In this document: positions 36,431 to 56,922 of the stretch, in pieces
Layout: every line of letters begins with the position of its first letter
Position numbering within the stretch: the first letter of the stretch is position 1
Assembly: GCF_000429685.1 (NCBI RefSeq)
Contig: NZ_AUCI01000018.1
Span: 1 to 64,000, forward strand
Direction of reading: 5' to 3'
Origin: Salibacterium aidingense DSM 18341
GTDB taxonomy: Bacteria > Bacillota > Bacilli > Bacillales > Marinococcaceae
DNA: 64,000 nucleotides
Made by a program: the position numbers and the translations under genes
Notes under the pieces: model-generated
The model's input: the letters and a program-made list of their open reading frames with translations, nothing else
What the model was told of the DNA's origin: nothing
Database searches by the model: none

Positions 36431-37372
36431 TCATCCGTTTTGATTTGATTTCCAGTAATGGTAATCGTGAACGGCTACTCCACCATAACCCGGATGGCCG
36501 GAAAAACGGTTGTCGAGGGAGTTCAATTCATGTTTCATGTAGCTTAGGGAATTATCGTGGAAAGTTGTGTGACTGCCTTCGTCGGTTTCAATGACGTTTA
36601 CGGCAATAACAACCGATTTGCTGCGGTTGGCTGCCTGTTCCACGAGGGGGGACACAATTCCTTTTATCCCATTCTCCCCATCTGTGTGATCCCGGTAGGC
36701 CATCACTGTAATGGAATCCAGCGTGGATATCATCCAGTCTCCCACGTATTTATTTTTCCCCGGGATTTTCACTTGATTAATCCAAAATGGCACATCCCCG
36801 CTGATCGTGAGTTCGGAACCAGGCTTCACCTGATTTTTCAAATGTTCCAGGTTATTGATCCACTGCGTTACCACATTTTCTCTGTCGGATTTCCATTCGG
36901 GCAGCAGATAAGGCTCTATATCAACATGGATGCCCTGGAATTTTTCTTCAACTTCTGCTTTGCGATTGTAGTCTTTGACGGTAGAAACAAAGGTATCCAG
37001 GCTTTCCTGGTTTTTCGTTAAGGCCCAGTTCGGATCCCCGCCAAGCGCGTAGACCTCAATATTTTTATCGGACGCCCTTTTGATAAAAGATTGAAACGTA
37101 TCGGAGTTAAAATTCTTCAAGTCAATATGCAGATAGACTAGGTTCACCCCTTGATTGTTTAGAAAGGAAACCGCCTCTTCCTGGTTCTCCTCCAGGTTCT
37201 CAAGGTCCCATATCCATGTTGCTTTCACTTGGTTTTTCTGCCCCATAAAAATCCCCAGTGCTGTGAAGAGTGCTGCCAGAACACAAAGGAGGATCAACCC
37301 TTTTTTGGTGCAAAATAGAGAGATAGCACGCTCTTTGACTACTGATTTTTTCCCTTGATAATTAGTGGACAT
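36431..37372 (-). CDS. Membrane-anchored TIM-barrel-like (putative glycosidase) protein, last gene of polysaccharide operon
   Basis: A 313-residue protein with an N-terminal membrane anchor (about residues 24-44) and an outside domain from about residue 50. The domain has the motif GIHVDIEPYLLPEW (Asp151, Glu153), reminiscent of the catalytic strand of GH18-like barrels, and paired stretches VYALGGDPNWAL and ITVMAYRDHTDG. The same domain occurs twice in the protein at 47799. I do not recognise a named family; a secreted polysaccharide hydrolase or transglycosidase role is inference. The ATG at 37372 overlaps the end of the upstream gene, so translation is coupled. Confidence 0.75.
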   Translation of the reverse strand: MSTNYQGKKSVVKERAISLFCTKKGLILLCVLAALFTALGIFMGQKNQVKATWIWDLENLEENQEEAVSFLNNQGVNLVYLHIDLKNFNSDTFQSFIKRASDKNIEVYALGGDPNWALTKNQESLDTFVSTVKDYNRKAEVEEKFQGIHVDIEPYLLPEWKSDRENVVTQWINNLEHLKNQVKPGSELTISGDVPFWINQVKIPGKNKYVGDWMISTLDSITVMAYRDHTDGENGIKGIVSPLVEQAANRSKSVVIAVNVIETDEGSHTTFHDNSLSYMKHELNSLDNRFSGHPGYGGVAVHDYHYWKSNQNG

Positions 37373-38336
37373 AAGGTTCCGCATGAGAATTTGAAGAAGA
37401 ATGATGGACATGAGTATGATCGGCAGCCTTATAGTCTATCAGGTCGACGTCAGGTCCAATTTTACAACCCTCTCCAATTTGAGTGTGTCCTCGTAACCGG
37501 GTACGAGGTTCGATGATAGTATGGCGCCCGATGGCGACTCCCGCTTCGATTAAAGTAGAAGAGGGGTCAGTAATAACCACATCACGGCGGCGGTGATGTT
37601 CCATGATTCGTCTTTGACAAATTTCTTCGGCCTGGGCAAGCTGTGTTCTATCGTTAATGCCGAAACATTCTTCCGTATCTTCTGCCGGGAATGCCGATAT
37701 TGTTTCTCCCATACGTTTTAAAATTTCAATCACATCCGGAAGATAATATTCCTGCTGCTTATTATCCGTGGATACCTGCTCCAGAGCTTGAAACAGCAGT
37801 GTATTATCAAAACAGAAAATGCCTGAGTTGACTTCCTGGATTTGTAATTGTTCCTCTGCTGCATCTTTATGCTCGACGATCCGTGCGACCTGTCCTCGTT
37901 TGTCCCGGACAATCCGCCCGTAGCCTGACGGGTCTTCCGGAACCATCGTTAAAATGGTAGCTGCTGCATTTGCGCGGTGGTGATGGTCCAGGCACTTTCT
38001 TAATGTTTGTTCTGTAATGAGGGGAGTATCCCCGGTGAGGATGAGGGTGGAACCTTGCTCCTCCTCCAGCTTTGTTTGGCACATTTTTACCGCGTGAGCT
38101 GTGCCCAGCTGCTCTGCCTGGCAGGCATACTCGGAAGAAGAGCCCAGCTGTTTCTCAATCATTTCGGCTTTATGACCGACCACCGTAAGAATTCGTTCTA
38201 CAGCCATATCCTGGAGCTGTTCAATGACGTGTTGCACCATCGGTTTGCCGCAAACGTGATGAAGAACCTTTGGCAGCTCGGACTGCATTCGTGTTCCCTT
38301 ACCGGCTGCTAATACAACTGCAAATGTCTGAGTCAC
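37362..38336 (-). CDS. Shortened GlmU-like UDP-GlcNAc pyrophosphorylase
   Basis: A 324-residue paralogue of GlmU (normally about 455 residues). The uridylyltransferase domain is complete: VVLAAGKGTRMQSELPKVLH at the start, GTAHAVK, GDTPLI, GYGRIVRD and EVNSGIFCF. Only the first coils of the left-handed beta-helix remain (TLIEAGVAIGRHTIIEP ...) and the acetyltransferase active site is gone; the protein ends in a His/Ser-rich tail. It should convert GlcNAc-1-phosphate and UTP to UDP-GlcNAc, while acetylation must be done by the housekeeping GlmU. It uses a GTG start overlapping the stop of the small gene upstream. It belongs to the polysaccharide operon. Confidence 0.85.
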   Translation of the reverse strand: MTQTFAVVLAAGKGTRMQSELPKVLHHVCGKPMVQHVIEQLQDMAVERILTVVGHKAEMIEKQLGSSSEYACQAEQLGTAHAVKMCQTKLEEEQGSTLILTGDTPLITEQTLRKCLDHHHRANAAATILTMVPEDPSGYGRIVRDKRGQVARIVEHKDAAEEQLQIQEVNSGIFCFDNTLLFQALEQVSTDNKQQEYYLPDVIEILKRMGETISAFPAEDTEECFGINDRTQLAQAEEICQRRIMEHHRRRDVVITDPSSTLIEAGVAIGRHTIIEPRTRLRGHTQIGEGCKIGPDVDLIDYKAADHTHVHHSSSNSHAEPYVH

Positions 38337-38541: not shown

Positions 38542-40374
38542 CTATTCTACCGTGACACTTTTAGCAAGATTTCTTGGTTTATCCACGTCGTTGCCAAGTG
38601 CCAGTGAAGTATAATAAGAAATTAACTGTAACGGAATCACCGTCAATAGCGGGGTTATCAGAGACAAAGAATCAGGAATGCAGCAGCCTTCATCCACGTA
38701 CTCCAACATTTCCATATTTCCCTTCTTTGACACCCCGAGGACGTGAGCTCCCCGCGCTTTTACTTCTTGTATATTCCCCAGCATTTTTTCGCTTACTTCT
38801 TCCTGGGTAAGAAGAGCAATCATGGGTGTTCCTTCTTCAATTAAAGCAAGCGTGCCGTGCTTTAACTCACCGGCAGCATAAGCTTCGGAATGAATATACG
38901 AAATTTCCTTGAGTTTCAGCGATCCTTCCAGCACAACGGCATGATCCAGACTTCTTCCGATGAAAAATACGCTCGATGCCTCCTTAATGGATTCACTATA
39001 CCGGCGGAGTGCTTCGGAATATTCGAGTAATTCTTCCATTTTATTTGGAATATCAAGGACCGTTTCAAGCAAATGCTGGCGGTAGTCTGCTGTTATCTTT
39101 TGTTTTAGATCGGCAAGGTAGATTCCCAGTAAATAGAAGACGAGGACCTGGGTCGTATAAGCTTTTGTTGAAGCCACTGCAATCTCAGGGCCGGCCATGG
39201 TCAATATGACCTCATCGGCTTCCCGGGCAATGGAGCTTCCTACTACATTCGTAATGGCGAGAACATTGGCTCCAAGATGCTGGCTCTGCCGGAGAGCTGC
39301 CAGTGTATCCGCCGTTTCTCCAGATTGACTGATAACAATCACCAGGGTCTTCTCATCCACGATCGGCCGGCGGTAACGAAATTCGGAAGCCACTTCTACA
39401 TCCACCGGGGTGCGGGTTAGTTCTTCCATCACGTGTTTTCCTATTAAACCGGCGTGATAGGCAGTTCCGCAGGCCACAATTGTAATTTTATCCCACTGTT
39501 CCACGCGCTCCCGGGTCCACTGCAGTTCCTCAAATAGGACCGTCTTTGTTTCCTGATTCAACCGGCCTGCCATCGTTTTTTTCAACGCTTCCGGCTGCTC
39601 GTGAATCTCTTTCAGCATAAAATGGTCATACCCATTCTTTTCGGCCTGCTCTACGTCCCAATTCACTCGGAAGATTTCTCGGCTTAACGGTTCGCCGGTT
39701 TTTGTCTGCAAAAGCGTAATATCGTCTTTCGTCAGGATGGCCATTTCTCCATCCTCTACTATATAAATGTCGCGGGTGTGCTCCAGAACAGCGGGTATAT
39801 CAGAGCTGATCAATGCTTCTTCGTTTCCGGCTCCGATAATCAGCGGACTGGCTTCGCGTACTGCATAAAGACGGTCTGGTTCATGTTTGGATACAATTCC
39901 TAACGCATAGGCTCCTTTTAAACGCTGGACTACCTTTTGAATAGCTGCCGTCATGTTCCCTTCATATAAGTAGTGGAAAAGGTGAGAGATGACCTCGGAA
40001 TCTGTTTGAGAAGAAAAAGTATACCCTTCTTCTGTAAGTTCCCGTTTGATCTCTAAATAGTTTTCGATAATACCGTTATGAACAATCGCAAATTCTTGAC
40101 CCGTGTCTGTATGGGGATGAGAATTTTCATCCGAAGGGGGGCCATGGGTGGCCCATCTTGTGTGGCCGATGCCCATCCGTGCTGAGAAGGGAGAGGGTTC
40201 AAGCTGCTGATGCAGCTCGTCCAGCCTTCCTTTGGATTTATTTACTTGAACAGAGTCCCCGTGATGCACCGCAATGCCCGCTGAATCGTAGCCGCGATAC
40301 TCTAATTTACTAAGCCCTGTCGTTAATACCTGCTGAATATCTTTTTCTCCGATATAACCAATAATTCCGCACAT
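38542..40374 (-). CDS. glmS: Glutamine-fructose-6-phosphate aminotransferase
   Basis: A 610-residue GlmS. The N-terminal nucleophile is Cys2 (MCGIIGYIG) with the GIGHTRWATHG and HNGIIENY glutaminase motifs. Two SIS domains follow (VISQSGETADTL, and the C-terminal HSEAYAAGELKHGTLALIE and KPRNLAKSVTVE end). It makes glucosamine-6-phosphate from fructose-6-phosphate and glutamine. It is inside the polysaccharide operon, 32 bases after the UDP-sugar dehydrogenase gene, and has no room for a glmS ribozyme, so this is probably a second, pathway-dedicated copy free of the normal glucosamine-6-phosphate feedback. Confidence 0.93.
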   Translation of the reverse strand: MCGIIGYIGEKDIQQVLTTGLSKLEYRGYDSAGIAVHHGDSVQVNKSKGRLDELHQQLEPSPFSARMGIGHTRWATHGPPSDENSHPHTDTGQEFAIVHNGIIENYLEIKRELTEEGYTFSSQTDSEVISHLFHYLYEGNMTAAIQKVVQRLKGAYALGIVSKHEPDRLYAVREASPLIIGAGNEEALISSDIPAVLEHTRDIYIVEDGEMAILTKDDITLLQTKTGEPLSREIFRVNWDVEQAEKNGYDHFMLKEIHEQPEALKKTMAGRLNQETKTVLFEELQWTRERVEQWDKITIVACGTAYHAGLIGKHVMEELTRTPVDVEVASEFRYRRPIVDEKTLVIVISQSGETADTLAALRQSQHLGANVLAITNVVGSSIAREADEVILTMAGPEIAVASTKAYTTQVLVFYLLGIYLADLKQKITADYRQHLLETVLDIPNKMEELLEYSEALRRYSESIKEASSVFFIGRSLDHAVVLEGSLKLKEISYIHSEAYAAGELKHGTLALIEEGTPMIALLTQEEVSEKMLGNIQEVKARGAHVLGVSKKGNMEMLEYVDEGCCIPDSLSLITPLLTVIPLQLISYYTSLALGNDVDKPRNLAKSVTVE

Positions 40375-40406: not shown

Positions 40407-41768
40407 TTATAATGCAATCGAAGCATGCTGCTTCTTGTGCACTTTTGATGCGGTTCCCAGCTTGTGAATGTGGGAAAGGTCATATTCCTTGAAAGCATTT
40501 CGGGTATCTACAATCGGTACCCCGAGGTGGGCCAGCTCGTCATAGTCAAAATCGCTGTGGTTTGTTACCAGCACCATGCAGTCATACTGTTTCAATGTTT
40601 CTTTATTGTAGGCTATGGAATGAACAACATTTTCTTCATTATCTAAAAAGCTGTGGGCATGAGGATCATAGTAATCCACATCGGCGCCATGTTCCTTGTA
40701 GAGTTCATAAAGGTAAAGGCCGGGAGACTCTCGTAAATCGCTGATATCCGGTTTGTAGGCCATGCCTAAAATAAGAATGTTGGAACTGTTAATAGATTTT
40801 CCGTAAATGTTCAGAGCTTGAGATGTTTTGCTGACGACAACATCGGGCATATTATTATTAATAGATTGAGCGAGGTCAATAAACTTGCTGTAGAAGCGGA
40901 AGCCTTTTGCTTTCCAGGATAGATACATAGGATCCAGCGGTATGCAGTGGCCGCCGATCCCCGGTCCCGGCTGGAATTTCATGAAGCCGAAGGGTTTTGT
41001 TGCAGCCGCATCTATCACTTCCCAGACATCGATATCCATCCGTTCGCTCATCATCGCGATTTCATTGACGAAAGCGATATTGATACTGCGGAATGTATTT
41101 TCCAAGAGCTTGGACATCTCCGCAACTTTTGGAGAAGAGACCGGCACGACGTGTTCTATATAATTGCTGTACAGAAGTTCCCCTACAGCATTACATTTTT
41201 CTGTCATACCGCCCATCACTTTCGGCATATTATGCGTGTGGAAAGAATCATTGCCGGGATCCACTCTCTCGGGGGAGTAACAAAGGAATATATCCTTTCC
41301 TGCCTCGTATCCCATCCGCTTAAATTCTTTTAAAATCAATTCTTCTGTAGTCCCCGGGTACGTTGTGCTCTCTAACGTAACCAGCATTCCTTTCTTAATA
41401 AAAGGTTTGATGTTTTCCATTACCCGCGTAATGAAAGAAGTATCCGGATCTTGATTTTCACTAAGAGGAGTTGGGACACAAATACTGATAGCATCTAATT
41501 CCTTTACCACGTCATAGTTCGTGGTAGGAAAGAAACGATGTGTATTTAAGCCTTCCTGCAGGTCTTGATCAGAAATGTCATTAATATAGGATTTCCCGTC
41601 CCGCAGGGCATTGATTTTTTCTTCGTTTAAATCTATTCCGCAAACAGGGAAGCCTGCTTTTACCATTTCCATCGCAAGCGGCAGCCCGACATATCCTAAA
41701 CCGATAACACCAATGTGAGCTTCTTTCATTTCAATTCGCTGACTCAATCGTTCAAAATACCCCATCAT
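40407..41768 (-). CDS. UDP-N-acetylhexosamine 6-dehydrogenase
   Basis: A 453-residue nucleotide-sugar dehydrogenase. The NAD-binding GVIGLGYVGLPLA, the ICVPTPL strand, the ESTTYPGTT loop and the catalytic cysteine in GIGGHCIPLDP are visible. The GGHCIP-type active site and length fit the WbpA/WecC group that oxidises UDP-GlcNAc or UDP-ManNAc, and not the UDP-glucose group (usually GGSCFP). Its product would be a UDP-aminouronic acid. With GlmS and the GlmU-like enzyme in the same operon this gives a coherent supply line for an amino-sugar/uronate polymer. The GAGGG ribosome site is five bases before the ATG. Confidence 0.88.
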   Translation of the reverse strand: MMGYFERLSQRIEMKEAHIGVIGLGYVGLPLAMEMVKAGFPVCGIDLNEEKINALRDGKSYINDISDQDLQEGLNTHRFFPTTNYDVVKELDAISICVPTPLSENQDPDTSFITRVMENIKPFIKKGMLVTLESTTYPGTTEELILKEFKRMGYEAGKDIFLCYSPERVDPGNDSFHTHNMPKVMGGMTEKCNAVGELLYSNYIEHVVPVSSPKVAEMSKLLENTFRSINIAFVNEIAMMSERMDIDVWEVIDAAATKPFGFMKFQPGPGIGGHCIPLDPMYLSWKAKGFRFYSKFIDLAQSINNNMPDVVVSKTSQALNIYGKSINSSNILILGMAYKPDISDLRESPGLYLYELYKEHGADVDYYDPHAHSFLDNEENVVHSIAYNKETLKQYDCMVLVTNHSDFDYDELAHLGVPIVDTRNAFKEYDLSHIHKLGTASKVHKKQHASIAL

Positions 41769-41804: not shown

Positions 41805-42623
41805 TTATTCTGTTACTTCCACAAGGCGTTTGATCCGTGCCTCCAGTTCAATCAGGGAAAATGGTTTGGTAATATATTCTGCTGCTCCGTATTCAAAAGT
41901 TCGTTTAATGTCTTCTTCCAGTTGTTTATTTGTCAGCACCATGATTTCGGAGTGACCTTTCGTTTGTTTATCAATATTCTTAATCTGATTTATAAATTGA
42001 TATCCCCCGATACCGGATAAATTAATTTCTGTGATAACTAAATCAGGAAGCAGATTTTGATACTGTTCGAGTCCATGCTTTCCATCTGTTGCAGCATGAA
42101 CGATATAACCCTTGCGCTGTAGATAATTCGTCAAAAGATGAACAATACTGTTATCATGGTCTACAATCAAAACAGATTTCTTATCTGTTTTCTGTATGGT
42201 TTCGTTGTCAAATACGCGGATTTCTTGTTTATTCGTTTGTTCAATCATCATTTCATTAATCATACGGGAGAGCATCTGTTCTGCATGATCACTGTTTTCA
42301 GGAAAATTCCCTACAACCATTTCTCCCATCAGCCGGTCTTTTTCTTCTAAAAAGTCTTTCACATGTAAGGCGTAAAAGTGGGTATAACCAAGGTCGCAGT
42401 CATCCAGCAGCAAACCGAGAATATGATGCTCTGTGTCATAGTTTACTTGGAAGGCCGTAGCAGGTTCTTCTTTTTCCAAATGTGTTATTAACGAGTGGAT
42501 GCCCTTCTGGTCGAGTGCCGCATGGGCAATAATTAGTCCGCAGGGCAGGTTACTTGCTTGATAGTAATGAAGAAAATGCTTGAAAGATTGAATGATACTA
42601 GAATTCATACGTGTTTCTGTCAT
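41805..42623 (-). CDS. Pseudo-response regulator with C-terminal receiver and degenerate GGDEF-like N-terminus
   Basis: A 272-residue protein. The C-terminal receiver domain (about 148-270) begins VLIVDHDNS and keeps the conserved Lys in YITKPFSL, but the phosphorylation Asp is replaced by Glu199 (LVITEINLSG), and one of the acidic pair is His156. It probably cannot be phosphorylated and may be locked in an active-like state. The N-terminal 130 residues have the secondary-structure rhythm of a GGDEF domain (IIAHAALDQ ... GEMVVGNFPENSDHAEQML) without its catalytic motif; that reading is tentative. The ATG at 42623 follows AAGGAGGG. It lies 19 bases after the GT2 synthase gene and may control the synthase. 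Confidence 0.75.
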   Translation of the reverse strand: MTETRMNSSIIQSFKHFLHYYQASNLPCGLIIAHAALDQKGIHSLITHLEKEEPATAFQVNYDTEHHILGLLLDDCDLGYTHFYALHVKDFLEEKDRLMGEMVVGNFPENSDHAEQMLSRMINEMMIEQTNKQEIRVFDNETIQKTDKKSVLIVDHDNSIVHLLTNYLQRKGYIVHAATDGKHGLEQYQNLLPDLVITEINLSGIGGYQFINQIKNIDKQTKGHSEIMVLTNKQLEEDIKRTFEYGAAEYITKPFSLIELEARIKRLVEVTE

Positions 42624-42642
42624 TTCGGAACCCTCCTTAGTG

Positions 42643-44073
42643 TTATGCAGCTTCTTCTTTCTCCTCATCCTCATTCCAGCTGGTTCTAGTCATCGTTCCC
42701 CATGAATTGTTTTTGCGGAAAAATTGAATGTGTCCCATAAATCTCCATAGGATGCCAAGCTGCCGGTATCCAAAGAACATTAAAATGGTATAGAGTACCA
42801 TCTTGAAGTAATCCCTGATCCTTGGGAAGCGCCGGAATGCCAATTCTTCGATCAATAAAGAACCCAATCCAAGCAACGTTCCATACAGTACATTAATGAG
42901 CATGAAGACGGCTACGATCTTCCATCCAGTCATATCTATCAAACTATAGCCAACAAGAGCTAGAAAACCAGTGATTCTAAAATAGGGGCTTAATGTTTCA
43001 AATATGATGTTGTAAGGGATGGTGAGCCAGCCCATTACTTTATATCTGGGACGCATAAACATACGCGTTCCTAATTCCAGCATATTTTTTAAATTGCCTC
43101 TGCCCCAGCGTTTTCGCTGACTACCAAGGATCTTGAAAGTGTCAGGTGCCTGCGTCCAGCATACGGCATCCGGGCAGAAGTCGATTTGATAAGGAAGGTT
43201 ATGATCCAGCATGTATCGGTGCAGTTTGATAATAATATTCATGTCTTCGCCGGGGTACCCACCGCGATAACCCCCGACTTTGATAATGTAGTCTTTTCTG
43301 AAAACGCCAAAAGCTCCGGATACGATGATTAACCCATTAATATCACTCCAGCCGATTCTGCCTCCCAGAAAGGCTTTTATATATTCCACGGTTTGAAGCA
43401 TAGGTAATAATTTTTTGGGAAGTCTGACTTTCTGCACCATCCCGTTGGAAATTCTGCATCCGTTGGCAATTCTGACATTTCCCCCGATGGCTACATATTC
43501 CTCCGGGTTCTCCATATACTTTCTCGCAATTCGAATCAAAGCATCGTTTTCCAGCAGCGAATCCGCATCAATAGATGAAACAAGCGAGTAGTGGGAGAAG
43601 TTAATCCCAGCGTTCAAGGAATCCGCTTTTCCGCCATTTTCTTTATCAATGAGGTAAAGGTTAGGAAATTCAGGATTATAATAGACTCCTCTCACCTCTG
43701 CTGTAGACAGTGTGTTCTGCTCTACGGGGGTAGGCTTATAATAATTTAAGCGGAATTCATCTATTAAAACTTTTGATGTGTTATCTCCGGATCCGTCGTT
43801 AACTACAATCACTTCGTGGGCGGGATAATGCAGAGCCAGCAGCGACTGGACGTTTTCTTTAATAGTCAGCTCTTCATTAAATGCCGGTACGAGAATGGAG
43901 ATAGGCGGCATGTGTTTAGAGCCTGAAAGAAATTCATATTTGGAATAGAATGTTTCCTTCATAATCCGGGTTATTTTTCTGAAGGAAAACATGATAATTC
44001 CAAAATAAATGGTATTAATCACAATCACGTAATACATGGCAAATATCCCATAAACTAGCAGAAAATCTCTCAC
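42643..44073 (-). CDS. Processive family 2 glycosyltransferase, probable polysaccharide synthase
   Basis: A 476-residue membrane glycosyltransferase. N-terminal helix at about 5-28, then the GT2 catalytic domain with the D, DxD, D, QxxRW set of processive synthases: VVNDGSGD, SSIDADS, PGEDMN and SQRKRW. Several C-terminal helices follow (about 345-460), which make the export channel in hyaluronan, cellulose and PNAG synthases. The NGGKADSLNAG loop is also typical. It would polymerise UDP-activated sugars made by the same operon. It uses a GTG start with an AAGGAA site. The exact polymer cannot be read from sequence. Confidence 0.9.
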   Translation of the reverse strand: MRDFLLVYGIFAMYYVIVINTIYFGIIMFSFRKITRIMKETFYSKYEFLSGSKHMPPISILVPAFNEELTIKENVQSLLALHYPAHEVIVVNDGSGDNTSKVLIDEFRLNYYKPTPVEQNTLSTAEVRGVYYNPEFPNLYLIDKENGGKADSLNAGINFSHYSLVSSIDADSLLENDALIRIARKYMENPEEYVAIGGNVRIANGCRISNGMVQKVRLPKKLLPMLQTVEYIKAFLGGRIGWSDINGLIIVSGAFGVFRKDYIIKVGGYRGGYPGEDMNIIIKLHRYMLDHNLPYQIDFCPDAVCWTQAPDTFKILGSQRKRWGRGNLKNMLELGTRMFMRPRYKVMGWLTIPYNIIFETLSPYFRITGFLALVGYSLIDMTGWKIVAVFMLINVLYGTLLGLGSLLIEELAFRRFPRIRDYFKMVLYTILMFFGYRQLGILWRFMGHIQFFRKNNSWGTMTRTSWNEDEEKEEAA

Positions 44074-44088
44074 TATCGTTCCTTCTTT

Positions 44089-45255: not shown

Positions 45256-45272
45256 AGGTGATCCCTCCCTCC

Positions 45273-47417
45273 TTAATCTTCGATGTTCTTGAAGACGTCT
45301 TGCACGATATAGTAGCTTTGTTTCAACTGTTCATCATATTCTACCTGCTGCCAGTCCGCCCAGTCATAAAGCGGATAGTCTTGTACGGAAATAGGGGAGG
45401 ATTGATTTTCTAATCCGTGCACCGTATCTGAATTATCAACGGTCCATGGAACGAACCGGATCCCTTTAGTATTTTCAGCAGGCATTTGCTGCGCTGTGTC
45501 TTTTACAGGGCCGTAACTCACCACCTCCTTGGTACTGGGATCTGTGAAACCAAGCAACGCCCACGGAATTTTCATTTCAACGACTTTGCCTTGATAGGCC
45601 CAGGAAGCCCGGGAATTCGGAGAGGAAGAGGCCTGTTCCATGCTGCCCGCCGACACTTCCTTAAAGGGGAGGACTTCATTGGACTCAGGAAGTTCCAGCT
45701 CATGACTCACGGCAAGCTGCCAGGGGTTCATGGTATCCTCTTGAACATCGCCGGCCTTGCTGCCGTACAACCTCTGATGAACATCATAGCTTGGGGCGAT
45801 TAGAATCCCGCTCTCGGTTTCTTCTCCCAGCCGAACCACGGTCTCCAATCCTTCATCCAAACGTCTTCCCTGTAGAAAATCTGGATCTTCGATTCCTCCG
45901 GCAATGGTATGGGCACCAAGATAGAAGGTGTCAGTTGACAAATCGGTTGATTCGGGAAGACGGGCAGCAGCATAGATATATCCTTCGTCTTTGGTTACCA
46001 TCAAATCCGTCAGGGGAGTGGAAAGCCTTTCGATTTCGCTCTCCTCCAAGCTTTCCCAATCTTCCACTGATCCATCTATAGTGAGCTCCTCATGTTTACT
46101 TGGATACATTCCCAGCAGACCGTAGGACGTTTCTGCCGATAACGCATTGAACCAGTAAGGCTGCCGTCCTGGATTTTCGAAAGGCATCGTATTCCAGGTT
46201 TTTTTGAACCACTCATCCTGCCATGTAAAAACGATAGCGCCGGCATAATCTTCCTGATGGATATGCTGCAGCATATCAGCGTTGTGTTGTCCCTGTTCTG
46301 TTTCCGTGTGGCCTCCCTGATCCCTGCCAAGCGGCCCCGGGTGGGCGTTCCCGCGGGAAGAAGGAACCCCGAACTCTGTGATCATTACCGGCATATCCTG
46401 ATGATAGTTTTTAAGCTCCTGCAGGTAGCCCTTATATGTATCAATTTGCCCCTCCTCATTTTTGACATCATCATACTTATCCGTGATTCTTAAGAAATCC
46501 GGGTAATAAGGATAAGCGTGAAAAGAAGCAAAATAACCGGCTTCTCCCCTTTTTCTTTGAATATTCGTCGCATCAACACTCACGGCATCCTCCATCGCGA
46601 GCGGCTCCTTTGGATGAGTAAGTGGGTCCGTCGTTATCCAATTAGTAAAGGTGACCGGGTGCTGCCAGCCTGTTTTTTTCTCATTTTCAGCTGTGTAATT
46701 CATAAGTTCAGCCAGCCAGCTTTCAAATGCTGAAGCGTCCGGAGAAGTTTGAAAAAAACTGCCGTCGAAATCCGTATTGTTGTGCTGCTTATTTGTATTT
46801 TCCACCACCTCAGGATCCCACTCTGTCCCAAGATGCCAGGCTGCCAGGTAAGGGCTGGCATCTGCAGAATATTTTCCGCTGGCTTTTCCATCTTCAGGCG
46901 GCAGGACGGCGTCTCCGTTAATGGCATCAATCGCGCGGGATATTTCTTCTTTGAATTGCTTGGTTACTTCATTGGATTTGGCGTCCTTTGTCTCCGCTAG
47001 TTTGTTCACCGGTGACCAAACTCCCTGCATAAAGTAGAGTGGGTTGTCCGGATTGTTTTGATTGTGCTCTACTAAAGCTTCGTAAAATTCTGGTTCGTGA
47101 ATGGTATAAATTCGAATCGTATTAGCACCCAATTGTTGAATGCTATCGAACCAGCGAAGGTAATCTTCTTTTTTGATGGAGAGCTCCCCCGGAAAATGTC
47201 CAGGTAACGCTGCTCCTAAATTAACTCCTTTTACAAAAAAGGGATCCCAGCTGTTTTTCTCGTAAATTTCGAGCTGATTTTCATTGGTCCGGAATTTAAT
47301 TTGAGATCCATCATCCATTTGTTTGCTTTCTGCCTCTTTCAAGGTTTCAGATGATTCACACCCTCCAAGTACTAGAAGCAAAAGGAGTATTCGAAGCGCG
47401 AAACCATTTCCATTCAT
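45273..47417 (-). CDS. Glycoside-hydrolase-like lipoprotein, first gene of polysaccharide operon
   Basis: A 714-residue lipoprotein; the signal peptide ends LVLGGC (Cys19). A TIM-barrel domain of clan GH-A character fills about residues 35-430: FVKGVNLGAALPG and ANTIRIYTIHEPEFY at the start, a possible acid/base Glu in HLGTEWDPEV and a possible nucleophile Glu in MITEFGVPSS. A beta-rich C-terminal domain (about 455-700, LTIDGSVEDWESL ...) resembles CBM9-like carbohydrate-binding modules. It probably acts on the polymer outside the membrane, as a processing or trimming enzyme. It has a GGAGGGGG site and leads the nine-gene operon. Confidence 0.8.
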   Translation of the reverse strand: MNGNGFALRILLLLLVLGGCESSETLKEAESKQMDDGSQIKFRTNENQLEIYEKNSWDPFFVKGVNLGAALPGHFPGELSIKKEDYLRWFDSIQQLGANTIRIYTIHEPEFYEALVEHNQNNPDNPLYFMQGVWSPVNKLAETKDAKSNEVTKQFKEEISRAIDAINGDAVLPPEDGKASGKYSADASPYLAAWHLGTEWDPEVVENTNKQHNNTDFDGSFFQTSPDASAFESWLAELMNYTAENEKKTGWQHPVTFTNWITTDPLTHPKEPLAMEDAVSVDATNIQRKRGEAGYFASFHAYPYYPDFLRITDKYDDVKNEEGQIDTYKGYLQELKNYHQDMPVMITEFGVPSSRGNAHPGPLGRDQGGHTETEQGQHNADMLQHIHQEDYAGAIVFTWQDEWFKKTWNTMPFENPGRQPYWFNALSAETSYGLLGMYPSKHEELTIDGSVEDWESLEESEIERLSTPLTDLMVTKDEGYIYAAARLPESTDLSTDTFYLGAHTIAGGIEDPDFLQGRRLDEGLETVVRLGEETESGILIAPSYDVHQRLYGSKAGDVQEDTMNPWQLAVSHELELPESNEVLPFKEVSAGSMEQASSSPNSRASWAYQGKVVEMKIPWALLGFTDPSTKEVVSYGPVKDTAQQMPAENTKGIRFVPWTVDNSDTVHGLENQSSPISVQDYPLYDWADWQQVEYDEQLKQSYYIVQDVFKNIED

Positions 47418-47798
47418 CCTTCCGACCCCCTCCTTACAGCATCTATTTTTGCCTTAATGAAAACTACTTTCCTTGTTGAAAATTGTTGAAAATTTAAGGT
47501 CTCCATGATTAAATAGTGTTGTGCTTTGTCCTCCACGTTTTTAACGCTAACATGAGGGGTTTCCTTCTTCATCGAAAACTGTATTTCGGAGGTGCGAATT
47601 TTTCTTTCGGGACCCCCGGGTCATGCTTCGACAGAAAGCATTGTTTTTGTTTGGCGAATGATTAGGCCAAGACGCTGAAAGCCGTATGACTGCTGGAGAA
47701 TATCAATGTCGAAAAATCCGCAGGGAGTATTGCGGAACCCCCTGGAAACCCCCGGGCTATTACCCGGGAAATGTAGTAAAAAAATGGGAGGATTAGAA
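47418..47798. other. Divergent promoter and leader region of the polysaccharide genes
   Basis: A 381-base gap between divergent genes. It has several GC-rich dyads unlike the surrounding AT-rich spacers: GACCC/GGGTC at about 47610-47621, TCCGCA/TTGCGGA at 47717-47736 and CCCGGG-CTATTA-CCCGGG at 47751-47768. The last two would lie in the leader RNA of the gene at 47799. A TTGCGG at 47730-47735 equals half of a ComA box, but the second half does not match. No known riboswitch signature was recognised. Confidence 0.45.
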
Positions 47799-49487
47799 AT
47801 GAAGAAAAAGTTATTATTCTTTCTGCTTACTGTCACTGCCTTTTTATTTCTAACAGGATTTTCTGATTCCGAAGAGTCCAAAAAGGCAATGTGGGTAGAG
47901 AACACAGATTTAAGTGAAAACAGAGAATCGATTCTGACAAAAGCAGAGGAAAATGATGTCAACGTATTGTATGTGAAGATGGAGGAAGAAACCTCTTCAG
48001 CTGCTTATTCCGATCTTATTCGTGGAGCAGATGAAAAGGAAATCGAAGTTCATGCTTTGGGAGGAGAGCCTGCATGGGCTCTGGCGGAAAACGAGCAGCA
48101 AATCCTTGATTTTATAGAACGGGTAAATAACTATAATGAAGGGGCGGCAGAAGAAGAGAAATTTCAAGGCATACACTTTAAAATACAGCCCCAGTATCTT
48201 CCGGAATGGTATGAAGATAAAAGTACTGTCTTAAAGGAATGGAAAGATAATCTGAGCACGGCGTTGGATACCTTTTCGGAAGATACCCCGCTCGAAATTA
48301 GCAGTTCCATCCCTTTCTGGTTAGATGAAATGGACACGCCTGGCGAGACGGACACTCCCTTTAGTACATGGCTGATTCGTCATTTTGATCATACGACGAT
48401 TCTGGCCTACCGTGATACATTGGAAGGTCCTAACGGCATTGTTAGTCTCACAGAAAATGAATTTGAAGCAGCTGATAGCTTAAATAAACAAATTTTAGTT
48501 GGAGTCACCATGGCGGATACGGGCCAGGATCACACCACTTTTTTTGAAGAAGGGACAGCGGACATGGATATGCACCTTAACCTGGTGGATAAACACCTTG
48601 GGGCGTATGATTCCTATAAAGGAACGGCGGTAGATGATTTTTCAAGCATGGAACAACAGGAAGACCAGGCTTCTGCGCCGCCGGAAGAAAATAAAAGCTA
48701 TCGGGGGACCTATATCTGGGAAGCGGAGACACTGATCAACGAAAAAGACAGTATTATTGAATTTGCCAAGGAGAAAAATATTAATCTTCTGTATACACGC
48801 TTGGATCTGACCCGTCCTCACAGTGCTTATTCAGACTTCGTGGAAAAGGCAAATGCCGAGGGTATTGAAGTGCACGCCATGGGAGGCCATCCTTCCTGGG
48901 CCCTGAAAGAAGAAGAGTCCCGGATGCTCGACCTCGTGGATTATGTGAAAACGTATAATGATTCGGTGGAGGAGGGTCAGAAGTTTTCGGGGATTCATCT
49001 CGATATCGAACCGTATACCCAACCATCATGGGCAGAAAACCAACAGGATATTCTTTCTCAATGGATGGATAATATCGAGTTATTTGTGAACGAAACCAAG
49101 CGCGAATCCAATTTGGAAGCCAGTATGGATCTTGCTATGTGGTTTGATAATACAGAAACGCCGGGTCAACCTGATACTCCTTTTAACGAATGGGTCATCG
49201 ACAAAATGGATCATACCTCTGTGATGGCGTTTCGAGATAAGGCGGAAGGATCCGGAGGTATTCTGGATATGGCCCAAAATGAAGTGGACTATGCGGAAAG
49301 TATCGACAAAGACGTTATTATTTCGGTGGAGATGAAAGAAAATAAAGCGAATCCCCACATTTCCTTTCATGACGAAGGAGAAGCTGTCATGGAGGAAGAG
49401 CTCGACCTTGTAGATGAGGAGTTACAATCCTATTCCTCCTACCAGGGCTATATTGTTCATGCTTACCGATATTGGAAAAACCAATAA
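47799..49487 (+). CDS. Secreted protein with two tandem TIM-barrel-like domains, first one degenerate
   Basis: A 562-residue exported protein; signal peptide LLFFLLTVTAFLFLTGFS at residues 5-22. Two homologous domains follow (about 28-290 and 310-562), both related to the outside domain of the protein at 36431. In the second domain the motif GIHLDIEPYTQPSW keeps Asp402 and Glu404, while in the first it reads GIHFKIQPQYLPEW, so Asp and Glu are Lys128 and Gln130. The first domain is therefore probably a non-catalytic binding copy. No named family was recognised. It is divergent from the polysaccharide operon and ends near comA. The ATG at 47799 follows GGGAGGA. Confidence 0.78.
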   Translation: MKKKLLFFLLTVTAFLFLTGFSDSEESKKAMWVENTDLSENRESILTKAEENDVNVLYVKMEEETSSAAYSDLIRGADEKEIEVHALGGEPAWALAENEQQILDFIERVNNYNEGAAEEEKFQGIHFKIQPQYLPEWYEDKSTVLKEWKDNLSTALDTFSEDTPLEISSSIPFWLDEMDTPGETDTPFSTWLIRHFDHTTILAYRDTLEGPNGIVSLTENEFEAADSLNKQILVGVTMADTGQDHTTFFEEGTADMDMHLNLVDKHLGAYDSYKGTAVDDFSSMEQQEDQASAPPEENKSYRGTYIWEAETLINEKDSIIEFAKEKNINLLYTRLDLTRPHSAYSDFVEKANAEGIEVHAMGGHPSWALKEEESRMLDLVDYVKTYNDSVEEGQKFSGIHLDIEPYTQPSWAENQQDILSQWMDNIELFVNETKRESNLEASMDLAMWFDNTETPGQPDTPFNEWVIDKMDHTSVMAFRDKAEGSGGILDMAQNEVDYAESIDKDVIISVEMKENKANPHISFHDEGEAVMEEELDLVDEELQSYSSYQGYIVHAYRYWKNQ

Positions 49488-49831
49488 ACAATATGGAAGG
49501 ACATGGCGGATCCGTTCTCTCGGCGAATGCCACGCGCAACGCAAAGTATGAGGGGGCAGCCACCGTTATTGCAGATAGTGGAAAGGCTATCCTTCATAGA
49601 AACAGGAGGACATTTATTCCGCTATTTCCTCGATTTTTCTCATTTTGGAGGGGGCATCGGACATTTATTCCGTTATGTCCCCTTTTTAGCGTAAAAAAAG
49701 CAGCCCAGAGCCCGAATAGCGGAACAAATGTCCGCCAAGGCTGCCATAGACCGCATATTCTGCCATATAACGGAACAAATGTCCGCGAGGCATTCTTAAA
49801 ACCCAGCGCATCTCCTCCAACGGCAGTTATT
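49488..49831. repeat. Cluster of four 18-bp repeats, two in each orientation
   Basis: GGACATTTATTCCGCTAT at 49608-49625 and GGACATTTATTCCGTTAT at 49659-49676 are followed by the reverse-oriented ATAGCGGAACAAATGTCC at 49716-49733 and ATAACGGAACAAATGTCC at 49767-49784. Spacings are 51, 57 and 51 bases. The inverted pairs can form a large nested hairpin between the secreted-protein gene and comA. An ORF through the region is a chance reading of the repeats. Confidence 0.8.
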
Positions 49832-50494
49832 TTATTCTGCTTCATCCGGAATAATTCCCCATTGTTTTGATTTCAAGACGGCTTCGGCTCTTGTTTTCAC
49901 CTGAAGTTTTTTAAAAATATCCGTCAAATTATATTCAATGGTACGGGGGCTGTTGTAAAAAATACTGGCAATTTCTTTGTTGCTTTTCCCTTTTGCGACT
50001 TCGGTGAGAATTTCCTGTTCCTTGGAATTAATGGATATCTCATGTCCGGCTTCGATGGGGGAGGGTTCAGTTTCTTCTACCCGCACCTCCATTTTTCGTA
50101 ATTGCCGGAGTAAGGAAACCGGTACAACGGCTTTCCCATCTACAGCATAGCGGATGGCCTGAATAAGTTCCTCTCTGGTCGATGTTTTACTGATGAAACC
50201 AGATATTCCTGCTTCCATGAGGCTGTTAAAATACGGTCCTACCTCATGGCCGGTATAAATTAAAACAGGGGCCTCCCGTTCCATCCCACGAACATGTTTC
50301 GTTAACTCAATCCCATTCATTCCTTTCATGCGTAAATCAAATAACATGAGAGAAAAGTCATCCCGATGAAGAATGTCGATGGCTTTTCCTGGACTATCGA
50401 CAATGGTCACTTCCATATCTTCTTCTTTCTCAATCATTAGTTTTGACCCTTCTCCTACGGCTGGATGATCATCGACTAATAAAATGCTGATCAT
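49832..50494 (-). CDS. comA: ComA, quorum-sensing response regulator
   Basis: A 220-residue NarL-type response regulator. The receiver starts LLVDDHPAVGEGSK and has the phosphorylation Asp in LMLFDLRMKGMNG, YTGHEVGPYF and ISKTSTREEL. The DNA-binding domain is at the C-terminus (KGKSNKEIASIFYNSPRTIEY, LTDIFKKLQVKTRAEAVL). These stretches track Bacillus subtilis ComA closely, including DDHPAV.EG, YTG.EV..YF and RTIEY.LT.IF.KL. It should be phosphorylated by ComP and activate density-controlled genes. The GGAGGG site is seven bases before the ATG. It lies 13 bases after comP. Together with comX, comQ and comP the identification is firm. Confidence 0.93.
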   Translation of the reverse strand: MISILLVDDHPAVGEGSKLMIEKEEDMEVTIVDSPGKAIDILHRDDFSLMLFDLRMKGMNGIELTKHVRGMEREAPVLIYTGHEVGPYFNSLMEAGISGFISKTSTREELIQAIRYAVDGKAVVPVSLLRQLRKMEVRVEETEPSPIEAGHEISINSKEQEILTEVAKGKSNKEIASIFYNSPRTIEYNLTDIFKKLQVKTRAEAVLKSKQWGIIPDEAE

Positions 50495-50507
50495 GGCGGT
50501 CCCTCCA

Positions 50508-52847
50508 TTACATTACTTCAAAATAATTTGTGAATTCCTGCTGCGATGGAAATAGAATAACAACTTCCAGCCCCGATCCTTCCGGGGAAAGAATCTCGAT
50601 GGTTCCATGAATACTGTTGACACGCTGTCGAATACCAGCCATTCCCATCTTTTGGGTGGATTGAGGCTCCCCCTTCGACGAAAGGCCGACGCCGTCGTCC
50701 TTGTAGGTCATAATAAACTGGTCTCCTTCATTTCTCACTTCGATATCTACATTCCGGGCTCTGGAATGCTTTGCTGCATTATTTAACAGCTCCTGAACAA
50801 TTCGATAGAGTGCCAGGCCCTGTTCATCACTAAGAATAGAATTAAAATCACAAGATTTAAAATGAATTTCAAAACGTTCCCTCGTCTGATAATGTTCAAT
50901 CAAATAGGAAAGGGCTTCTGCTATACCGGTATCCTTTAAAAAGGGGGGACGTAATAATGTGCATGTTTCCCGGACTTGATCCACCACTCCAAGCAGCCCT
51001 TCCCGCAGTTCTGATAACTGCCTTTTTAACGAATCAGAAAGCTGCTCCTGGGTAAGCATCTCCTCTACTTTTCGATACCAGATTAACTGTTCTTGCAGCG
51101 CGGAATCATGTAAATCATAGGAAAGCCGGGCCCGTTCTTTTTCAGACAGCCTAAACAACAGTCTTAACATCCAGGAAGGCATGGCGTGGCCATTATAAAG
51201 GGAGTGATTCAATTCTTCGGTAACGTCTTCGAGCAGCTGGAAATTTTCATAGACAATACTTGTATAGTGAACAAGTACTTTTATCCAATGCTGCTCATCC
51301 TGATTAAACGGGGTATGATTCACTTTCTGTTCAATCCATAAAATTTGGATAGAATCATGCTGCACACTAATAACGGAGCATAAACCGTCTTCAATTAAGA
51401 ATTGGGAACCGATAGTAAGCAGAGACTGGTGATGCATTAAGTACATTTCTATTAAGTATTTAGGATACTCCTCCTCTCCTGAGGATAAGCGTGCCATACC
51501 TTCCTGTTTGGAAAATGTGATAATGGAGGTATGGTGAACCGGAAGCACCTCTTTCACCTCTCGGATCAATCTTTCGTTTAACTCGTCTTTCTTCAAGATT
51601 TTTGCTATGTCATAGGAGAAGCGGTCCAGACTGATTTCATAGTTATGTTGACTTTTGAACAGGGCCCGGATATTCAGTTTATCTTCTAAATAGAAAAATA
51701 AGATAAACGATCCGTAAGTGAGAATGATAAACCTCGCCCATTGAATATACGTTAAATTTGTAAAAAACACAGCCAGCCCGATAACCAACCCTGTCAGGAT
51801 CAACGATTTAAACGCATAGTAACGCAGCCGGCTGTTGATAAAATCAATATCAAACACTTTATTCGTTAACACGAAATACAGGAAAAATACCGGCAGCACT
51901 GTGAGGAAAGCTGCTGTAACCGATGCTGGCAGCAGTTTTATACCAAACAGGGTACCTGGCAGAGCCGTCAGAAAGATAAATGGAAAAAAGGATACAATGA
52001 TGCTGAATATAGTATTTTGAAATATCGTTTTATGGATCGTTTTACGAAATTTTAAATAATAGTAAATAAGGACGCAAAATCCAAACAACATCTCAGCCGA
52101 AAACAGGAGCAGCTGGGCATTACGAATCCATCCATATATACCGCCGAAAAATACAAAGTTGGACAGCCCATCAAGGACAACGACAATTATATTAACAGTA
52201 TAAACGATCACAAGTACTTTCCATTGGATCAGCTGGATACGATACTTTAAAAAATACTGAAAATGAAAGTGTAAAAATAAAGCAGGGACCATCATGAGTG
52301 AAAAGCTGTTCACGATGCGGGCAAACGCGTCCAGCCTTGCAGAAGCTCCTGCACTTAAATAGCCGAACCCTACTGCTGACAGGAAAGCAATGAGAAATAA
52401 GGCAATGGGTTCTCCGCGTTTTTTCCAGTAGATATACAGGGAAAAACCTAACAGTATTAAAAACACACCCAGTGGCAGCAGCGTGTGGTACAAAAGGGTA
52501 TTAAAATTTAGTGGAATCTGCACCTTATATTCGAGTTGATTTCCGTCCCGGAGCACTTTCATTTGTTCTAATCTGCCAATGACTTCATACTGCTGAATGG
52601 AAGAAAAAGAAGCGGGATCCTGCCCGTTTACTTCTACGACAATATCTCCCGTCTGAATATTTCGCTGTGCGGCCCAACCTATTGGGTTTACATTTGTAAC
52701 TTCCCACTGATCCCCGTTCTTTTTCTTGACGTCCAGGCCTACGTAGGTTTCACTGGTGGTTATGTAAACGAGATAAACAGCGGTGAAAGCGGTAAGTATT
52801 AAAAAAAAACCAATCGGAAGCGTGTAATATTGAGCATACTTATTCAT
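50508..52847 (-). CDS. comP: ComP, quorum-sensing sensor histidine kinase
   Basis: A 779-residue membrane kinase. One N-terminal helix is followed by an outside PDZ-like loop (about residues 35-105, NPIGWAAQRNIQTGDIVVEVNG), nine more hydrophobic segments to about residue 390, a cytoplasmic linker, a HisKA_3 dimerisation domain with the phospho-accepting His in SYDLHDSALQ, and a HATPase domain (QELLNNAAKHSRA, DDGVGL). Size and layout match B. subtilis ComP (about 769). It would sense the modified ComX peptide and phosphorylate ComA. The start at 52847 was chosen because the longer frame runs through a strong terminator hairpin. Its own ribosome site (GTGGGGGA) is very close to the ATG. Confidence 0.92.
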   Translation of the reverse strand: MNKYAQYYTLPIGFFLILTAFTAVYLVYITTSETYVGLDVKKKNGDQWEVTNVNPIGWAAQRNIQTGDIVVEVNGQDPASFSSIQQYEVIGRLEQMKVLRDGNQLEYKVQIPLNFNTLLYHTLLPLGVFLILLGFSLYIYWKKRGEPIALFLIAFLSAVGFGYLSAGASARLDAFARIVNSFSLMMVPALFLHFHFQYFLKYRIQLIQWKVLVIVYTVNIIVVVLDGLSNFVFFGGIYGWIRNAQLLLFSAEMLFGFCVLIYYYLKFRKTIHKTIFQNTIFSIIVSFFPFIFLTALPGTLFGIKLLPASVTAAFLTVLPVFFLYFVLTNKVFDIDFINSRLRYYAFKSLILTGLVIGLAVFFTNLTYIQWARFIILTYGSFILFFYLEDKLNIRALFKSQHNYEISLDRFSYDIAKILKKDELNERLIREVKEVLPVHHTSIITFSKQEGMARLSSGEEEYPKYLIEMYLMHHQSLLTIGSQFLIEDGLCSVISVQHDSIQILWIEQKVNHTPFNQDEQHWIKVLVHYTSIVYENFQLLEDVTEELNHSLYNGHAMPSWMLRLLFRLSEKERARLSYDLHDSALQEQLIWYRKVEEMLTQEQLSDSLKRQLSELREGLLGVVDQVRETCTLLRPPFLKDTGIAEALSYLIEHYQTRERFEIHFKSCDFNSILSDEQGLALYRIVQELLNNAAKHSRARNVDIEVRNEGDQFIMTYKDDGVGLSSKGEPQSTQKMGMAGIRQRVNSIHGTIEILSPEGSGLEVVILFPSQQEFTNYFEVM

Positions 52848-52886
52848 TCCCCCACGTATTGCTGCTTTCTTTTCAACTTCTAATCC

Positions 52887-52924
52887 GTGTAAAAAAACCA
52901 GAGGAACTCTGGCTTTTTTACACG
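52887..52924 (-). terminator. Terminator/attenuator between comX and comP
   Basis: GTGTAAAAAAACCAGAG and CTCTGGCTTTTTTACAC form a long stem with a GAA loop between comX and comP. It has a T run on the minus strand. It would end most comQ-comX transcripts and let a fraction read into comP-comA. Confidence 0.85.
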
Positions 52925-53009
52925 AACAGGAAAGATACATTTCCAATTTTACAAGAAAAACATCGGCAGCCGCCGGTTGACGGCTTGCCGGGTTTTCCGA
53001 TTATTTATA

Positions 53010-53183
53010 TTATTTCCAGTAAGATTTATTGACGTTAATTCCCTGAAATTCCTTATCTGTCAAGACATCCACAACGGCAGCTTTTTCTGTTTCCGATATG
53101 CCGGCTGCCTTCAGTTTATCCTCTTTTAACTGCTCCAGGAGATGAGGCTTTTCTGCTAATTGTTCCACTACTTTTTTTAACAT
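53010..53183 (-). CDS. comX: ComX pheromone precursor
   Basis: A 57-codon gene read directly from the DNA. It encodes a precursor beginning MLKKVVEQLAEKPHLLEQLK and ending FQGINVNKSYWK. ComX precursors are 50-75 residues with a conserved start region rich in Leu/Lys and a Trp three or four places or fewer from the C-terminus, which ComQ prenylates; here it is Trp56. It sits between comQ and comP as in B. subtilis, has a perfect GGAGG site seven bases before the ATG, and is followed by a terminator. Expected mature pheromone: a short C-terminal peptide around NKSYWK with a prenylated Trp; its exact ends cannot be told. Confidence 0.9.
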   Translation of the reverse strand: MLKKVVEQLAEKPHLLEQLKEDKLKAAGISETEKAAVVDVLTDKEFQGINVNKSYWK

Positions 53184-53210
53184 GATAATCCTCCTTACGT
53201 TTTAATGAGC

Positions 53211-54155
53211 TCACACTTGTTCTATATACTCTTGCATACGGCTTTTCCAACCTTGACTTACCTGAAGTTCATTCATTTTATCGATAGCTTTTCTTTGATA
53301 GACACGTTTCAGCACACGCATGTATAAGAGGACGGAAGACTGATGAATCCATTGGAACAGGGATTCCTCCCTCTCTACCATAAACGCTTGATCTACGTTT
53401 TTCGCATAATAATCCTGAATCCACTGGGCTTGTTCACTGTTTTCCTTGGAAAGAAGCATGATAGGCAGTGTCCATTGTTTCTGCAGCAAATCATTCTTTG
53501 TATCCATACGCAGAAGCCCGTCTATGTCATTGGCTAATTGGGCTGTCACCCCAAGACTTTCCGAATATTCCTGAATAATAGCCAGTTCATCACGCGTGGA
53601 TTGGCAGAGGATGGCCCCGATAAGAGTGGAACAGGCCATCAAGGATCCGGACTTGTATTTAATCATCCGTAAAAAATCGTCCTCTGTCTGATAGAGATGA
53701 TTGAGATCTTGATGCTGGCCTTTTACTGCCTGTAAAACTTGTTGATAAAGGTGCTGAAGGGCGGATGACTTCAAATTGTCACCATAAGGAGCTTGTTTTA
53801 GGACAAGCGTGCTTAACGTTAAAAAACCTGTGGATAAATTCATGGAAGTAGAAAATGGAAAAGTAGACCAGGGTTTTTCTGTGTCATCTTGATCCTGCAG
53901 GTCATCGAGTATGTCCAAAGCTAAAATTAAGAACTCTACTGCCGCAGACACATGGAACATCCCATGACTCTTTTCACATTTGTCGATGTGATAATGCAGC
54001 TGTGTTAATTCTGAGAATAAAAAACCTTCCTTCATCTTATACATGATGAACAGGGCGGCCTTTTCTCGGAGATCATGATCATCCAAATGCGTATTCACCA
54101 TCTCTAGCATCACATCTGTTGTTTGGCGAAAAGAATAATTTGGAATTTTTTCCAT
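53211..54155 (-). CDS. comQ: ComQ, isoprenyl transferase for ComX
   Basis: A 314-residue isoprenyl-diphosphate-synthase-fold protein. The first aspartate-rich motif is LDILDDLQDQDD (about residues 80-91) and the second is reduced to NDIDGLLRMD (about 212-221), with KSGSLMACS before it. This altered second motif and the low similarity to chain-elongating synthases are typical of ComQ, which attaches a farnesyl or geranyl group to the ComX tryptophan. It lies 27 bases upstream of comX and begins the comQXPA locus. The AAAGGGAAG site precedes the ATG. Confidence 0.92.
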   Translation of the reverse strand: MEKIPNYSFRQTTDVMLEMVNTHLDDHDLREKAALFIMYKMKEGFLFSELTQLHYHIDKCEKSHGMFHVSAAVEFLILALDILDDLQDQDDTEKPWSTFPFSTSMNLSTGFLTLSTLVLKQAPYGDNLKSSALQHLYQQVLQAVKGQHQDLNHLYQTEDDFLRMIKYKSGSLMACSTLIGAILCQSTRDELAIIQEYSESLGVTAQLANDIDGLLRMDTKNDLLQKQWTLPIMLLSKENSEQAQWIQDYYAKNVDQAFMVEREESLFQWIHQSSVLLYMRVLKRVYQRKAIDKMNELQVSQGWKSRMQEYIEQV

Positions 54156-54785: not shown

Positions 54786-54799
54786 TGAAAGCGATTTAA
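54786..54799. promoter_or_regulatory. Near-match cre site before the DapA-like gene
   Basis: TGAAAGCGATTTAA differs from the cre consensus at one conserved position (A for C near the end). It lies between operator copy G and the ribosome site. Confidence 0.3.
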
Positions 54800-54827
54800 A
54801 AATTTTGTAGGAGTAGGAGGAATTGTA

Positions 54828-56909: not shown

Positions 56910-56922
56910 TGGGGTTACAAAG

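Follow-up and report, generated by a model that had tools for sequence, protein, structure and literature searches.

Which genes does the comQXPA quorum-sensing locus of Salibacterium aidingense DSM 18341 control? The locus occupies positions 49832-54155, minus strand, of a 64,000-nucleotide (nt) stretch of contig NZ_AUCI01000018.1 (positions 1 to 64,000), hereafter the window. The ComQXPA circuit of Bacillus subtilis is regarded as a global regulator of competence and surfactin. Targets of comQXPA outside the B. subtilis group are not established in the accessible portions of the literature examined. In the window, the locus forms one margin of an island of about 18 kb (36431-54155) that also holds what is, to judge from the encoded families, a polysaccharide operon. 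The island is probably a self-contained, horizontally acquired ComQXPA module dedicated to this adjacent exopolysaccharide operon.

The comQXPA locus

Genes are ordered comQ, comX, comP, comA, all adjacent and on one strand (Table 1). The original prediction was of a complete ComQXPA locus with the gene order of B. subtilis and with a hidden comX of 57 codons in the gap between comQ and comP. All four genes are present with family matches for each, and on these matches the locus is confirmed as a genuine, complete comQXPA quorum-sensing system. The ComX profile PF05952 aligns to residues 1-56 of the 57-residue peptide (E 3.8e-15, well above the cut-off in bits) and has no other match in the whole 4.4 Mb genome. 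The ribosome site and the penultimate Trp read earlier from the sequence are both verified: AAGGAGG stands 6 nt upstream of the ATG, and the peptide ends in NKSYWK with Trp second from the end. Lack of conservation of the small gene with comQ and comP had been named as grounds for refutation; it is conserved with them, and PF05952 matches next to comQ, comP and comA occur in three of the four genomes of the genus.

ComQ carries the Asp-rich motif D84, D85, D88 and the pair N209 D210, invariant in 47/47 ComQ. A named relative, from Salibacterium salarium DSM 16461, is 84% identical. ComQ relatives beside comX within the genus are 82-84% identical at 559-582 bits, versus just 31-39 bits and 24-27% identity for the remaining polyprenyl-synthase matches across the four Salibacterium genomes. 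On these scores the window ComQ groups with ComQs and apart from housekeeping polyprenyl synthases; the concern that it might be one of the latter is not borne out.

The N-terminal half of ComP is hydrophobic, as seen in its sequence. Its PDZ domain would lie outside the cell by analogy with ComP of B. amyloliquefaciens, for which a PDZ loop was earlier predicted (PMC9620489, available text). PDZ as a special trait of the window ComP was considered and rejected: at E <= 0.01, PF00595 matches the N-terminus of ComP in 20 of 31 cases. The true start of comP is probably ATG 52847 (779 residues), which has a G-rich stretch unusually near it. Start TTG 52946 (812 residues) is rejected because the reading frame would span the hairpin between comX and comP described below. 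For the DNA-binding domain of ComA, the best solved structure is that of B. subtilis ComA, 2krf, similar over 59 residues.

The adjacent polysaccharide operon

Eight genes on the minus strand, from GH714 to dup326, form the putative operon. Gaps between them are 15-36 nt or overlaps, with one gap of 205 nt. Convergent with comA, and divergent from the operon, lies dup593, distantly matching the solved glycoside-hydrolase-like protein 10yv. The single domain of dup326 shares 28-38% identity with the dup593 halves of nine relatives. GH714 has no Pfam, NCBIfam or PDB match. The glmU-like product scores just below the cut-off of TIGR01173 (366.85 bits) and spans positions 3-313 of 452. The gene set would supply UDP-N-acetylglucosamine (UDP-GlcNAc) and uronate to a processive synthase, and the product of the operon is presumably an exopolysaccharide.

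Synteny was checked in the 20 kb downstream of nine loci, namely that of the S. salarium-type genome G003 and all eight of family f36. The eight operon genes and dup593 stand beside comA in identical order and orientation in 9/9. In two of them (G160, locus L034; G102, locus L039) an extra single-domain dup593-like gene intervenes between comA and dup593. RR289, the receiver-domain protein, gives matches of just 135-137 residues in two of the nine. In G001, a further Salibacterium genome, the com contig stops about 200 bases past comA and GH714 lies near the start of another contig, so linkage of comA and operon is putative there.

Surveys of comX and GH714 covered 397 genomes of the order each, with the same handles where listed. 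Full-length GH714 at >= 50% identity is found in 11/397, the same 11 genomes that have island-type comQXPA. Relatives of GH714 occur in 137/397, those beyond the 11 at 28-46% identity; G349 holds a 71-residue fragment at 52%. The fourth genome of the genus, G002, is without comQ, comX, comP and GH714. In this genome about 230 bases separate the relatives of the window genes at 19437-20348 and 54789-55745, so the stretch missing there is larger than the island. G002 has either lost this stretch or never had it.

Conserved element in front of the operon

The region between dup593 and GH714 has in 10/10 aligned loci the consensus CCGaAA-N5-aTTCGt-N4-CCGAA-N7-TTTCGA, with 22 of 46 columns invariant. 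Its 27-nt core, TTCGN3TTCCGAAN5GTTTTCGA, is present at <= 1 mismatch in 11/11 island loci, G001 included, and once in each of the three island-bearing Salibacterium genomes; G002 has just a site with 3 mismatches. At 3 mismatches the genomes of the genus have 1-2 further sites each, like the control (0-2). Chance expectation in the window at <= 3 mismatches is 0.02 matches. Control loci were the 19 best-scoring non-island matches of GH714. None of these 19 homologue loci has the core at <= 3 mismatches, and one has it at 4; 18 of their 19 genomes are without a comX match, and the remaining one, G360, has a weak one at another place. Non-island com loci yield two matches with 4 mismatches.

The available text of PMC4797271 gives the ComA site of B. 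subtilis as TTGCGG-4-CCGCAA with a further, directly repeated copy of that hexamer behind it. The present element is an inverted repeat that keeps the 4-nt spacer and has, downstream, a third element oriented like RE3, the layout of a ComA-type site. Its half-site is TTTCGG versus TTGCGG, with T for G at position 3. Among the conserved island genes, comA alone encodes a recognised DNA-binding domain, RR289 being limited to its receiver domain. The element is taken as a putative ComA site. In the 11 island com loci the operon site is the sole match at <= 4 mismatches; none stands before comQ, and so there is no sign of element-based feedback on comQX.

Distribution and phylogeny

Matches of PF05952 occur in 51/397 genomes of the order, 48 of them above the cut-off, and are spread over 24/135 genera. 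In family f1, to which the window belongs, they occur in 3/29 genomes and 1/12 genera, all in Salibacterium. The profile gave no match in any of the 14 control genomes, although B. subtilis is among the named controls; these counts are therefore lower bounds. Surveys of ComX by PF05952 thus miss real ComX.

Counting the window and the 51 others, 52 com loci were collected. A ComQ relative is present in 47, ComP in 52 and ComA in 50, and the order Q-X-P-A on one strand is kept in 44/52. Among the eight departing loci, five are without a ComQ match (in G040 and G067 comX lies near a contig end), two are without a ComA match (one of them also without ComQ), and in G053 the opposite strand carries the best ComA match. 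In G106 (L080) the comX match is weak (23.2 bits, below the cut-off) and on the strand opposite to comQ, comP and comA, a layout resembling unusual loci described in the available text of PMC4008528. All 52 loci, departing ones included, are kept in the ComX counts. G088 holds two comX loci, L047 and L060, with 73 and 44.9 bits; upstream of comX at L060, about 1.6 kb lies between it and the end of the best ComQ match.

Outside the genus, family f36 has the comQXPA loci closest to these (ComP 47-51%, ComA 63-66% identity). In trees of ComP and ComQ Salibacterium joins f36. In the RpoB tree it stands with f26 and f6, with f36 placed beside f14 and f37, and G002 is sister to G001. For 21 matched genomes RpoB rejects f1+f36 in the approximately unbiased test (p-AU 0.00018), whereas in ComP f1+f36 has support 100 and f1+f6+f26, the grouping akin to that of RpoB, is rejected (p-AU 1.8e-10); tree searches were short and used LG+G4 only. 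Because the ComP and RpoB trees conflict, horizontal transfer of the island would be the simplest reading.

Terminators in com loci

The gap between comX and comP folds far better than shuffled sequences (z -6.28), an effect owed largely to a hairpin with a U run behind it. A like hairpin is present in 11/11 island loci, and in each 12-14 of the 14 positions pair. Pairing is kept via A-U/U-A and G-C/A-U swaps, and the loop-closing pair is broken in three of the 11. Over all loci, terminator-like hairpins occur in 16 of 26 comX-comP gaps of >= 35 nt, where shuffles give an expectation of 0.1. They occur in 0/15 comQ-comX gaps and in 14/22 comP-comA gaps, 13 of the latter in family f43. Thresholds were set after the sequences had been viewed, and shuffles were scored with identical ones. 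In f43, which we take to be Bacillus-like, the hairpin lies between comP and comA and not between comX and comP in 13/13 loci (L062, L063, L067-L072, L074, L076, L077, L079, L082). Its form, ACTTGGC...GCCA[AG]GT with a T-rich run, recurs in one f32 locus, L064.

In the island loci the comX hairpin may end most transcripts, with comP and comA made by read-through. Such reliance is suggested because in G209, where comP starts an estimated 48 nt past comX, the gap offers scant space for a promoter downstream of the hairpin. Signal genes would therefore outnumber receptor genes in expression.

ComX tails and pherotype

Trp is next to last in 40 of the 52 ComX collected, and two have no Trp. The ending YWK is found in 12/52; the 11 island ComX comprise eight with YWK and three with FWK. 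Residues preceding YWK vary between species, as pherotypes do. Within the genus (three loci) the ComX alignment has 35 of 57 columns identical and a constant final YWK; 17 of the first 48 columns vary, as do five of six at 49-54. This variable tail is compatible with pherotype divergence, without proving it. The window ComX may possibly represent the new pherotype suggested earlier, with -YWK tails recurring in relatives. ComP of the same loci has 515 of 779 columns identical. Its lowest 40-column blocks are 1-40 (25%, where one row with a shorter start pulls the figure down), 441-480 (37%), 81-120 and 201-240 (50% each) and 41-80 (52%). Variation in ComP is not restricted to the sensor part.

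Proposed working and alternatives

ComQ would prenylate ComX on the Trp of its tail, ...NKSYWK. Once released, the pheromone would bind the PDZ and membrane part of ComP, and ComP would phosphorylate ComA. ComA is predicted to bind the CCGAAA / TTTCG repeats at 47572-47610 and to turn on the divergent promoter of the operon 36431-47417, possibly that of dup593 too. Gene identities, synteny, co-occurrence, the conflict of trees and the conservation of element and hairpin are direct observations. Prenylation, sensing, ComA binding, control of the operon and efficiency of termination are all predicted from family knowledge and the conserved layout. Beyond a dedicated module, chances are about even that ComQXPA, a single promoter target and the whole polysaccharide operon make up a transferable cassette moving as one unit between families. 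A further part of that reading, held with the same evenly balanced confidence, is that the re-coded ComA site TTTCGG and the terminator after comX set the cassette apart from the B. subtilis circuit.

Several observations weigh against a dedicated module acting through a ComA-bound element. ComK is found in 4/4 genomes of the genus, including G002 without comQXPA, and other targets are therefore possible. Operon genes are missing from about 20 kb downstream of comQXPA in 6/6 loci of other families (tblastn, E 1e-12), so the link is a trait of the lineage. The glycosyltransferase matches 15 NCBIfam models and falls short of the cut-off of each. The ComA-like reading of the element was made after its discovery, and no clear counterpart of RE4, from the direct repeat of B. 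subtilis, can be made out in it. The strict box TTGCGGN4CCGCAA is absent at <= 3 mismatches from the operon promoter region of the window; at the operon promoters of ten island loci it is absent in seven and found only with 3 mismatches in three. As a genome-wide marker, the B. subtilis box was rejected, with 124 matches versus 127 for the reversed control at <= 2 mismatches.

ComK and the six operon-free loci would suit an ordinary comQXPA in charge of a general regulon of late growth or competence, with the polysaccharide operon as a neighbour co-inherited by chance. That account is rather unlikely in view of the order kept across two families in 9/9 loci, the matching sets of 11 among 397 genomes, and the element of ComA layout that occurs at <= 1 mismatch just once per island-bearing genome. 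The T at position 3 of the half-site and the missing RE4 speak instead for an operon that is part of the module while its element is bound by another regulator, so that com genes and operon share history only. With comA the sole conserved island gene having a recognised DNA-binding domain, and with the element absent at <= 3 mismatches from all 19 non-island loci of GH714 homologues, this is improbable. Finally, both families could have inherited the island from a common ancestor, other lineages having lost it. A pattern of presence and absence does not by itself separate gain from loss, and comQXPA is scattered over 24 of the 135 genera; against descent stand the f1+f36 clade, rejected by RpoB and supported at 100 by ComP in the short LG+G4 searches, and the comX matches confined to one of 12 genera of f1. 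Descent is unlikely. The preferred reading is a transferred module dedicated to its neighbouring operon.

On that reading, a conserved neighbouring operon with one putative site offers a direct, testable target of comQXPA in a halophile. The two cis elements, the ComA site and the comX-comP terminator, are separately testable. The island would be a simple case of a quorum-sensing circuit rewired and carried together with its public good.

Feature list and neighbouring genes

Table 1. Positions in the window of the com genes, the operon and their predicted signals
Feature	Position	Strand	Basis
comQ, ComX-modifying isoprenyl transferase, 314 residues	53211..54155	-	PF00348 57.6 bits
comX ribosome site AAGGAGG	53190..53196	-	read from sequence
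comX, pre-pheromone, 57 residues ending NKSYWK	53010..53183	-	PF05952 55.9 bits, cut-off 25
Predicted intrinsic terminator hairpin between comX and comP	52886..52924	-	gap folding z -6.28; 11/11 island loci
comP, membrane histidine kinase with N-terminal PDZ domain	50508..52847	-	HisKA_3, HATPase_c and PDZ, all above cut-off
comA, response regulator, receiver domain (REC) and LuxR-type helix-turn-helix (HTH)	49832..50494	-	Pfam
dup593, probable secreted protein (by eye) with a tandemly duplicated domain (two copies)	47706..49487	+	distant match to 10yv
Conserved element, ComA-site layout CCGAAA-N5-ATTCGN-N4-CCGAAN-N6-TTTCGA	47572..47610	-	10/10 aligned regions
GH714, lipoprotein-like (by eye), 714 residues, first operon gene	45273..47417	-	
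HEAT-repeat protein, hydrophobic N-terminus (by eye), 388 residues	44089..45255	-	PF13646
Processive-type membrane glycosyltransferase family 2 (GT2), distantly PgaC/IcaA-like	42643..44073	-	PF13641 65.6 bits
RR289, receiver-domain protein, 289 residues, without recognised DNA-binding domain	41805..42674	-	PF00072 only
Nucleotide-sugar dehydrogenase (presumably UDP-sugar to uronate)	40407..41768	-	TIGR03026 410.7 bits, cut-off 189.8
glmS, glucosamine-6-phosphate synthase	38542..40374	-	TIGR01135 800.6 bits, cut-off 418.05
glmU-like, UDP-GlcNAc pyrophosphorylase part, short C-terminus	37362..38336	-	TIGR01173 357.3 bits
dup326, single-domain homologue of dup593, last operon gene	36431..37411	-	

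TRAP-transporter-like gene sets flank the island at 33386-36375 (by likeness) and 55806-58733 (Pfam); the second follows a gene of the DHDPS family at 54828-55748 (Pfam). A sulfatase-family gene (PF00884) lies at 62119-63741, about 8 kb from comQ. A short repeat, GGACATTTATTCCG / CGGAACAAATGTCC, is seen by eye at 49600-49800, where comA and dup593 converge; it stands there in several copies and in both orientations.

Comparison with known systems

Loci of comQXPA outside the B. subtilis group were catalogued in 2014 by Dogsa et al. (PMC4008528). As in those loci, according to the available text, the window has a divergent comQXPA in another member of the Bacillota and a ComX most variable in its tail. 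That text, as far as available, names neither Salibacterium nor a linkage to an operon. In papers on Pontibacillus and Halobacillus comX appears merely in passing in the accessible portions. Titles and opening parts of abstracts in the literature searched hold no comQXPA-polysaccharide operon link of the present kind, no ComA half-site altered in this way and no comX-comP terminator.

Like PgaC/IcaA-type operons and others with a similar processive glycosyltransferase, the window operon combines a membrane GT2 with genes of sugar-nucleotide supply. Unlike them, it has a GT2 of 140.9 bits against TIGR03937, versus a cut-off of 422.3, so that assignment as a poly-GlcNAc synthase PgaC/IcaA is not made; it also has a nucleotide-sugar dehydrogenase, GlmS and a GlmU-like protein, and two kinds of extracellular protein without a family.

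The window system resembles ComQXPA of the B. subtilis group in gene order and strand, in its four protein families, in a Trp near the C-terminus of ComX, in the PDZ loop of ComP and in the DNA-binding domain of ComA. Unlike that group, it has Trp next to last, the half-site TTTCGG, not TTGCGG, and a polysaccharide operon adjoining comQXPA as presumed target. Its terminator lies between comX and comP, whereas the f43 loci have theirs between comP and comA. The signalling system is of a known kind; the linkage to the operon, the altered ComA half-site and the moved terminator appear to be new by the titles and abstract openings searched.

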